A stretch of DNA of 64,000 nucleotides, from positions 186,001 through 250,000 of the forward strand of contig NZ_FMCS01000007.1 in assembly GCF_900091435.1 (NCBI RefSeq). Direction: 5' to 3'. Made by a program: the position numbers and the translations under genes. The notes beneath the pieces were generated by a model, which had not been told where the DNA came from, made no database searches, and saw nothing but the letters and a program-made list of their open reading frames with translations. The stretch comes from Micromonospora chaiyaphumensis (GTDB taxonomy: Bacteria > Actinomycetota > Actinomycetes > Mycobacteriales > Micromonosporaceae). Shown piece after piece: positions 34,850 through 44,536 of this stretch; position 1 is the stretch's first letter, and each line of letters starts with the position of its first letter.

Positions 34850-35284
34850 ATGAGCGTGGACGGGTTCTTCGAGGTCCGCTGGTGGTGGAGAGCGACGGCT
34901 CCAGGTCGGGGCGCGGCGTCAGACGCGCCGAGCTGGAGTCGTCGCAGGGCGGTCCGCGTGGCGGTCTCCGATCGTACGGCGCTTCCGGCGGCCCGCCGCG
35001 CGGTGGCGCGCCGCCTGGCCGGGCTGCGCACGGTCGACCTGGAGCTGGCGCGGGCGCACCGGGCCGCCGGCCGGCCGGTGCCGGTGGGTCCACTCCTGCG
35101 CGACCTGGTGGCGGTGTCGCTGGGCGCGGCCGAGGCGACCGGCGGGCTCGTGGACCCGACGGTCGGTGCGGCCCGGCTGCGCCGGTCGGTGATCCCCTTC
35201 CCCAGCCGGCTACCCGGTGGTAACTTGCCGGCATGTCCATCGACGGTCGTCCCGCCGGCCGGCTGGCCGGCAAGGTGGTGCTGA
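34850..35284 (+). pseudogene. ApbE-like (FAD:protein FMN transferase) remnant
   Basis: The open frame begins MSVDGFFEVRWWW. Residues about 38-110 (AVRVAVSDRTALPAARRAV and AGRPVPVGPLLRDLVAVSLG, then ATGGLVDPTVGAA) resemble the N-terminal third of ApbE flavin transferases. The family's middle SRFRPDSEL block is missing, and everything after the DPTVG point (~200 residues) is absent and replaced by unrelated sequence. A 54-bp palindromic repeat (34892-34945) interrupts the N-terminus. I read it as a decayed gene, not a working enzyme. Confidence 0.6.
34892..34945. repeat. 54-bp imperfect-palindrome dispersed repeat, copy A
   Basis: This 54-bp block matches 43867-43920 at 51 of 54 positions and does not match beyond those limits. 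It is itself an inverted repeat: the outer 18-nt arms match at 16 positions, and GCGTCAGACGC forms the centre. It lies inside the ApbE remnant. Confidence 0.8.
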
Positions 35285-42737: not shown

Positions 42738-44536
42738 GCGTCGGTCTCCCTCGTTCGGTCGGTGCCGACCGGCCCGGGCACCGCGTGCAGGTGGCGGCCC
42801 GGGCGGCCCGGGGTCGTCGCCCGCAACGCGAGCACCGCGATGTCGTCGTGGTCGCCGTGGCCGAGCCAGTCGCAGGTCACCTGCTCGACCCGCTCGGCCA
42901 GCGCCGGGGCCGGCATCCGGTGGCAGCCGGTCACCGCGTGCAGCAGCCGCTCGGCGCCGAACTGCTCCTCGCCCCGCCGGCCGCCGCGCGCCTCGGTCAC
43001 CCCGTCGCTGTAGAGCAGGCAGGTCTCACCCGGGGCCAGGTGCACGGTGACCTCGCCGATCCGGGGATCCGGCACCACGCCGATCAGCATCCCGCTCAGC
43101 GGCACGACCTCCACCTCGCCGGAGGCCAGCAGCACCAGGGGCGGGAGGTGACCGCCGCCGGCCATGGTCAGGGTGAGCCCGCCGTCGCGGTGGGGGCGCA
43201 CCACGCCCAGCACCATGGTGGCGAACCGGCCCTGCCCGTGCGCCTGGGTGGTTTCCAGCAACGCGTCGTTGAGCAGCTTCAGCAGCCGCGCCGGCTGCGA
43301 CTCGACCCGGTGCAGCGCGTGCAGGCACTGGCGGAGCTGGCCGGTGAACACGGCCGCCTCCACGCCCTTGCCCGAGACGTCGCCGAGGAAGAAGACCGAG
43401 CCGCCGTCGACGAGCCGGTGCGAGCCGTAGAAGTCGCCGCCGATCCGCAGCCCGGCCTGCGCCGGCCGGTAGGCGGTGCCCCACTGCACGCCCTGGGCCG
43501 CCGCCGGCTCGACGGGCAGGAGACTCGCCTGGAGGGTGTCGGCCACCTCGGCCTGGTCGCGGTAGAGCAGGGCGGTGGTGAGCGCGGCGCCGGCCCGGGC
43601 AGCGAAGGCGCGGACCAGGTCGAGGTCGGCCTCGTCGTGCCAGCGGCCGGCCCGGCGGGCGACCAGCAGCACCCCGGCCGGGGCCTCCCGGCCGGGCAGC
43701 GGCACCACCCGGGCGGTGGCGCCGGCCTCGTCGAGCCCGGGCAGCCAGCCCGCCTCGACGGCCTGCTCGACCAGCCAGTCCAGGGCGTGCGGCTCGGCGC
43801 CGCCGAGCCCCTCCTCGATCGCCGACGGCAGCGCCGCGGCGGCGAGCACGCCGCTGTCCACGGCCGGCGACGGCTCCAGGTCGCGGCGCGGCGTCAGACG
43901 CGCCGAGCTGAAGTTGTCGCCCGCATCGTCGTCCGCGCGCACCGCCCGCCACCACCGGGCCCGGCCGGAGCGCGGGGCCAGCACCAGCACGGCGACGTCG
44001 GCCACGGTCGGCACGGCCAGCCGGACCACCGCGGCGGCGGCGCGGTCGGGATGCAGGGGGTTGCCGAGCTTCTCGCCGACCACGGCGAGGAACGCCGAGC
44101 GGGCCCGCTCGGCGAGCAGCGCGTCGGCGCGGCTGACGCTCTCGGTGACGTCCTCGACGTACCAGCAGCGACGACCGGCGGAGAGCGGGACCCGGCGCAG
44201 CCGCAGTCGCCGGCCGTGATGGGTGAACTCGCCCGGGTCGTCGCCACCGAGCGCGGCAACGCCCGCCGCGGCGAGGACCTCGCCGGGCACCACCTCGGGG
44301 ACCAGCCGCTCGGCCACCGGGCTGAGATGCCGCACCACCCCGTCGGCGTCGCAGACGATCAGACCCTCGCGGAAGTGCTCCACCACCTCCGACCAGCCGG
44401 GGGTGGCCGGGCCGCGGTCCGGGGCCAGGGGCGGCAGCGCCGGCTCGGGCGGGGACCACGCCCGAGCCCGTTGGGCACCCGGCGTGGAGATCCGTCCGTC
44501 GCCCGGGTCAGCACCCCTGACGTCGGCAGCAGTCAC
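42734..44536 (-). CDS. PAS-GAF-PP2C (SpoIIE-type) phosphatase
   Basis: This ~600-residue phosphatase has a PAS domain (EGLIVCDADGVVRHLSPVAE), a GAF domain in the middle and a C-terminal SpoIIE/PP2C domain. All metal-binding aspartates are present (IGGDFYGSH, FLGDVSGKG, YSDGVTEA, DDIAVLAL). It should dephosphorylate STAS anti-anti-sigma factors in response to its sensor domains or the B12 protein. There is no RsbW-type kinase domain. An in-frame 54-bp repeat (43867-43920) inserts FSSARLTPRRDLEPSP into the GAF region. I start at GTG 44536; TTG 44596 extends it 20 residues. It overlaps the B12 gene by 4 bp. Confidence 0.88.
   Translation of the reverse strand: MTAADVRGADPGDGRISTPGAQRARAWSPPEPALPPLAPDRGPATPGWSEVVEHFREGLIVCDADGVVRHLSPVAERLVPEVVPGEVLAAAGVAALGGDDPGEFTHHGRRLRLRRVPLSAGRRCWYVEDVTESVSRADALLAERARSAFLAVVGEKLGNPLHPDRAAAAVVRLAVPTVADVAVLVLAPRSGRARWWRAVRADDDAGDNFSSARLTPRRDLEPSPAVDSGVLAAAALPSAIEEGLGGAEPHALDWLVEQAVEAGWLPGLDEAGATARVVPLPGREAPAGVLLVARRAGRWHDEADLDLVRAFAARAGAALTTALLYRDQAEVADTLQASLLPVEPAAAQGVQWGTAYRPAQAGLRIGGDFYGSHRLVDGGSVFFLGDVSGKGVEAAVFTGQLRQCLHALHRVESQPARLLKLLNDALLETTQAHGQGRFATMVLGVVRPHRDGGLTLTMAGGGHLPPLVLLASGEVEVVPLSGMLIGVVPDPRIGEVTVHLAPGETCLLYSDGVTEARGGRRGEEQFGAERLLHAVTGCHRMPAPALAERVEQVTCDWLGHGDHDDIAVLALRATTPGRPGRHLHAVPGPVGTDRTRETDA
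43867..43920. repeat. 54-bp dispersed repeat, copy B, inside the PP2C gene
   Basis: This copy matches 34892-34945 at 51 of 54 positions. Because 54 is a multiple of three and one strand has no stop, it adds 18 codons to the GAF domain without breaking the phosphatase frame. The flanks share no target duplication that I can be sure of. Confidence 0.8.

Follow-up and report, generated by a model that had tools for sequence, protein, structure and literature searches.

A 54-bp palindromic element inserted in frame in a Micromonospora phosphatase gene belongs to a family dispersed through the genus and parts of Micromonosporaceae

An in-frame insertion in a phosphatase gene

The window analysed here, a 64,000-nt stretch of the genome of Micromonospora chaiyaphumensis, contains two copies of a palindromic repeat, one of which (copy B) lies inside a gene for a serine phosphatase (Table 1). 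The two repeat matches, at 34892-34945 (copy A) and 43867-43920 (copy B), are 94% identical without a gap, and since the 22-nt end pattern of the repeat is expected by chance just 0.01 times in the window, the pair is not a chance resemblance. Copy A is read in a different frame from copy B, as ATAPGRGAASDAPSWSRR, and lies in frame in an ApbE-like open reading frame (34850-35284, + strand), close to its start; this reading frame is short and seems truncated, and its match to Pfam ApbE (E=0.0021) falls below the cut-off.

Table 1. Positions of the repeat copies and the host gene in the window
Feature	Position	Strand	Basis
Copy A, conserved core	34893-34944	+	51/52 identical to the consensus
Host gene, PP2C/SpoIIE-type serine phosphatase, 620 aa	42734-44596	-	Pfam, orthologues, AlphaFold model
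54-bp insertion (52-nt palindromic core and 2 variable nt, CC)	43868-43921	+	DNA alignment with orthologues
Copy B, conserved 52-nt hairpin core	43868-43919	+	Genome search and covariance model R1

Comparison with the DNA of orthologues shows that the inserted 54 bp are made up of the core followed by CC at 43920-43921, with an uncertainty of up to 2 nt at the edges, since CG is read in the target as well. On the + strand the filled site is thus CACGGCCGG-[52-nt core]-CC-CGCATCG, and the empty site in this lineage would have been CACGGCCGG-CGCATCG. The insertion encodes residues 226-243 of the phosphatase, GDNFSSARLTPRRDLEPS. A first-pass annotation of this DNA had correctly counted 18 added codons; the 16-residue peptide that it gave is the same insert with its edges shifted, and GDN belongs at the start.

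A scan of one genome per species, covering 84,980 species, returned 53 orthologous loci, all of them in Micromonospora, and 50 of these cover the insertion site. The 18 residues are absent from all 50 proteins (71-94% identical), the closest relatives included, and the insertion point is flanked in the orthologues by conserved sequence, VRADD.A on one side and PAVDSG on the other. The peptide is therefore not one that all orthologues share as part of the domain. At the DNA level, exactly 54 bp are missing at this site in the orthologues of about 45 Micromonospora genomes. As the site is also empty in the closest relative compared, Micromonospora sp. AMSO31t (G009), the sequences indicate that the insertion most likely took place after this lineage split from AMSO31t.

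The phosphatase is otherwise intact, as first annotated, with its SpoIIE/PP2C catalytic domain at residues 397-593 (Pfam SpoIIE E=6.7e-43). The placement of the insert in a GAF domain stands less firmly: the GAF_3 match is weak by sequence (E=0.004, below the Pfam cut-off), whereas the secondary structure of an AlphaFold model (mean pLDDT 65, 35 sequences) tentatively supports a GAF-like fold N-terminal to the phosphatase domain. The model places a PAS-like region first, then a second alpha/beta region of GAF type and then the phosphatase, and its Foldseek matches include RssB, Rv1364c and SpoIIE phosphatases, with phytochrome modules lower in the list. The insert coincides with a segment of pLDDT below 50 (223-242) between strands 212-219 and 246-252, and is predicted to form a disordered loop. 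A flexible loop between two strands is the easiest place to tolerate an 18-residue insert.

A repeat family in Micromonosporaceae

The core of copy B is identical to the family consensus at 50 of 52 positions and was recovered in the genome by covariance model R1 with E=1.6e-12. This model was built from 19 copies of the same genome, and reverse-strand echoes of the palindromes were set aside before counting. The M. chaiyaphumensis genome (G000) has about 30 strong copies by DNA search and about 35 by the covariance model, by which AMSO31t has nearly 30. Of the 101 Micromonospora genomes sampled, 78 have copies (E<=1e-4), with at least 13 in the genome that has most among the matches listed, and 8 of 44 genera of Micromonosporaceae gave matches (E<=1e-6). 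An order-level sample that includes few genomes of the positive genera gave no copies outside Micromonospora. Across the genomes searched at family and order level the element is seen in Micromonosporaceae only, and it is a general feature of Micromonospora and parts of its family.

The 11-Mb genome of one further genus of the family (G128) holds 28 matches, in which the stem takes the variant form CGACTGGTCCGGG...CCGGACTGGTCG with paired changes. This subfamily (L247-L262) includes several near-identical copies, which suggests a recent burst.

Collections of plasmids and phages gave no match to the element, and viral contigs none to its 21-nt exact pattern, so no vehicle is seen and spread by plasmids or phages was set aside. 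A known RNA family was likewise rejected, there being no Rfam match anywhere in the window at the gathering threshold.

A hairpin maintained with a bias to one strand

The element forms an interrupted stem of 21 pairs whose ends read CGAC...GTCG, followed by a variable NA. Folded as DNA, the + strand reaches z = -6.6 for copy A and z = -3.1 for copy B, and the opposite strands fold less well. Of 144 distinct cores, 91-100% retain the pairing at any one of the 21 paired positions, with compensatory exchanges from A-U to G-C at pair 11-42 (38 cases) and from C-G to G-C at pair 7-46 (18 cases), and exchanges from G-C to U-G or C-G at pair 5-48 (27 cases); pairing was also tested against shuffles in a smaller sequence set. 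The same cores hold 211 G·U cells on the + strand as against 47 C-A cells, which are G·U on the other strand. Compensatory changes thus preserve the hairpin, one strand being favoured. Because the G·U bias is to the + strand, it suggests that this strand, as single-stranded DNA or as RNA, is the form that matters.

Copies inside genes

Gene contexts were assigned to 128 non-redundant copies with a codon-usage caller trained on open reading frames from the orthologue loci, and not from curated annotation. By this measure 35 copies lie inside genes in frame, 43 at a gene start, 22 just after a stop codon (-3 to 75 nt) and 14 are read into at a gene end, the remaining 14 having no gene near. At two loci (L018 and L193) the core starts, on the strand of the preceding gene, with TGA and not CGA, and this TGA is the stop codon of that gene. 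Insertion into a gene, which the first-pass annotation had called unusual, is not so for this element, given that about a quarter of its copies are internal. Genes occupy most of an actinobacterial genome, so an internal share of 27% is nevertheless a deficit, the work of selection or of target preference.

As the unit is 54 bp long and five of the six consensus frames are open, the sixth meeting TGA, an insertion adds 18 residues without a frameshift; the earlier remark that one strand is stop-free was right but understated. The 35 internal copies lie on both strands and use four frames, RQLQLGASDAAPRPGAV (12), DGSRSRRGVRRAELESS (10), DDSSSARLTPRRDLEPS (8) and TAPGRGAASDAPSWSR (5), and never the TGA-bearing one. 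With four different frames in use, no single peptide is being used. The fifth open frame, the Arg-rich RRLQVAARRQTRRAGVV, is found in 0/35 (p about 4e-4), so the peptide is not entirely inconsequential. The suggestion in the first-pass annotation that Micromonospora proteins have similar peptides proved right: many proteins of the genus contain the same peptide or one of the three read in the other frames.

Curated models identify the hosts as unrelated enzymes and other proteins: valine--tRNA ligase (G070), L-aspartate oxidase NadB (G022), SufD (G088), protoporphyrinogen oxidase (G029), an Lhr-type helicase in another genus (G184), an acyl-CoA dehydrogenase, an alpha-amylase-type enzyme and a diguanylate cyclase. 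Of the host genes, valS, nadB, sufD and hisC count as essential or biosynthetic. The valS gene of G070 (L157, G070:C5:13880-16930) has one in-frame copy, and in eight other genomes valS is 18 residues, or 54 bp, shorter exactly at the insertion. valS is normally essential. Since each of these eight relatives, G070 not among them, has one valS gene, the insert-bearing ValS of G070 very likely works, as judged from gene content.

In hisC, which lies outside the window (L299, G000:C5:128550-129731), M. chaiyaphumensis has three identical tandem in-frame units, adding 54 residues. AMSO31t, G022 and G049 have one unit there, G017 has a partly deleted remnant and most other genomes read have none, an exact 18-residue presence or absence. 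The insert decays in G049 and G017, and such drift and partial loss speak for a neutral peptide.

Polymorphism between close relatives

M. chaiyaphumensis and AMSO31t were compared at 17 loci. About eight of these sites are empty or nearly so in AMSO31t, three (L012, L015 and L016) differing by exactly 54 bp; several others are shared, and two arrays differ in copy number, with three units against one in the first and one against two in the second. Within the arrays the units follow one another head to tail, each core and its 2 nt making up one 54-nt period. Insertions that are present in one genome and precisely absent from another are thus seen at the phosphatase gene, at valS, at hisC and between these two genomes. 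At one locus (L131, G009:C14:10394-10582), where M. chaiyaphumensis has the element, the empty site of AMSO31t has eight extra bases, CCACGCCC, which may be a decayed remnant or an excision footprint. From the sequences of the junctions the inserted unit is 54 nt. Of the two nucleotides that follow the core, the second is A in 63% of 82 independent single copies.

Origin of the insertion and alternative explanations

We consider it highly probable that a short non-autonomous palindromic mobile element, one that has multiplied in Micromonosporaceae, inserted here recently and so added the 18 codons. The element is dispersed, is polymorphic between close relatives and is absent from all orthologues at the phosphatase site, which bears out the earlier proposal that the protein tolerates a mobile palindrome in the form of an in-frame peptide. 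What moves would be the single + strand, folded and either DNA or RNA, and it would serve as the substrate for transposition by an enzyme acting in trans. Copies that break genes would be removed by selection, and an in-frame peptide would persist as neutral ballast forming a disordered loop; tandem copies may come from later duplication of the 54-bp unit. Against this explanation stand the lack of a transposase or autonomous partner among the genes inspected and ends that are not those of a textbook transposon, since they bring two extra nucleotides and show no consistent target-site duplication. A more far-reaching version, which we put forward tentatively as a possibility rather than an expectation, is that the palindrome is still mobile and coding throughout the genus, its length and sequence selected for translatability in most frames, that it moves as a folded single strand through an enzyme outside the RAYTs and the known IS transposases, and that it supplies core enzymes with expandable in-frame arrays of one to three units.

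We regard as unlikely that the element is an ordinary MITE cross-mobilised by a DDE-type IS whose ends match and which duplicates 2 bp of the target. The inverted ends are nearly perfect, and 2-nt direct repeats flank 17 of the 82 single copies where shuffles give an expectation of 7.8. Yet these copies have no uniform target-site duplication, and among the youngest copies of the element (at least 50/52 identical to the consensus) it occurs at 15 of 56, with 7 expected by chance, so that most young copies lack it and such a duplication was rejected as a rule. With the idea in view that half-elements are the ends of an IS, genes were called at four half-element loci (L025, L026, L028 and L029), and the transposase scan covered a few open reading frames between paired copies. 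The few neighbouring genes inspected included no autonomous IS with the ends of the element, and none of the few scanned frames between paired copies is a transposase.

Mobilisation as a REP-type element by a RAYT, a Y1 tyrosine transposase of the IS200/IS605 kind that acts on a single-stranded hairpin, seems to us quite unlikely. It would suit a short hairpin that pairs in a strand-specific way, has asymmetric ends and a left-flank preference for C at -4 and G at -2, and lacks a uniform target duplication. However, the Y1/RAYT domain PF01797 is absent from five near-complete, element-rich genomes (G250, G277, G052, G086 and G022), and neither consensus end has a GTAG tag. The sole Y1-transposase match in M. 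chaiyaphumensis (L246, G000:C12:400782-401081) has an internal TAG and lies on a contig without a known copy of the element. A resident RAYT/Y1 transposase is thus not required, and RAYT was left unsupported as a resident mobiliser.

That the insert has been domesticated, with the 18 residues or the mRNA hairpin altering how active the host is or how it is expressed, such as by tuning a sensor loop of the phosphatase, is in our judgement very improbable. The phosphatase frame is intact and its insert sits in a sensor-like domain, and in AMSO31t and G096 a copy lies in the GAF domain of the diguanylate cyclase, at a site that the two genomes share. But the four unrelated peptides are used at similar frequency, the host enzymes are unrelated to each other, in relatives the hisC insert has drifted and in part been lost, and the phosphatase insert is seen in one genome only. 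Finally, an ancestral segment lost from every other species, or an assembly or slippage artefact, would account for a single occurrence at the phosphatase site and nothing more, and is dismissed by the 50/50 orthologues that lack the insert, by its identity with a genus-wide repeat and by the same exact 54-bp difference at other sites.

Comparison with known systems

A literature search that reached a minority of subscription journals returned no report of a palindromic element, MITE or REP in Micromonospora or Micromonosporaceae, which is not proof of absence. In entering hosts as central as valS and hisC, this element has left a natural collection of 18-residue insertions that are tolerated and for which sister species have the exact empty alleles. 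The collection makes testable the old question whether selfish DNA can feed new protein segments, and offers a defined substrate for finding the mobilising enzyme.

Like the enterobacterial MITEs RU-1 to RU-3, which are 103-168 bp long, the element is a non-autonomous inverted repeat that can sit in genes and be translated (PMC2759123, PMC2229807). A MITE usually comes with an IS and a target duplication, whereas here no such IS was seen among the few neighbouring genes inspected and no consistent duplication among the 82 copies. GTAG and CGTC REPs have stems of 5-13 bp with a tetranucleotide tag at one end and often form head-to-head dimers; CGTC REPs, with CGTC at one end, an 8-9 bp stem, a loop of 4-5 nt and a CCA-like tail, seem like the present element to lack a dedicated transposase (PMC3733652). 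Our element shares with both the character of short dispersed hairpins, some inside genes. It differs from both in its interrupted 21-pair stem, the lack of either tag and its head-to-tail 54-nt arrays, and from GTAG REPs also in that PF01797 is missing from five copy-rich genomes. PARCELs, which encode a 25-residue amphipathic repeat domain, are also palindromic coding repeats found in tandem and in frame (PMC2996958); unlike theirs, the peptide here varies by frame and appears unstructured.

In its behaviour the element matches the Rickettsia palindromic elements (RPEs) RPE-1 to RPE-3 (Ogata et al. 2000). In later summaries these are mobile palindromes that lie in frame in unrelated protein genes without destroying them, are about 100-150 bp long and are reported to encode a conserved peptide (PMC10969869, PMC3767692), with insertions at solvent-exposed positions (PMC3767692). 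Our element resembles them in lying in frame inside many unrelated genes (35/128 copies), and differs in its 54-bp unit, its use of four frames on both strands, its tandem in-frame arrays and its large free-living actinomycete host. In-frame palindromes are best known from the reduced genomes of Rickettsia, and what is presumably an unrelated family behaves alike in the large, free-living actinomycetes studied here.
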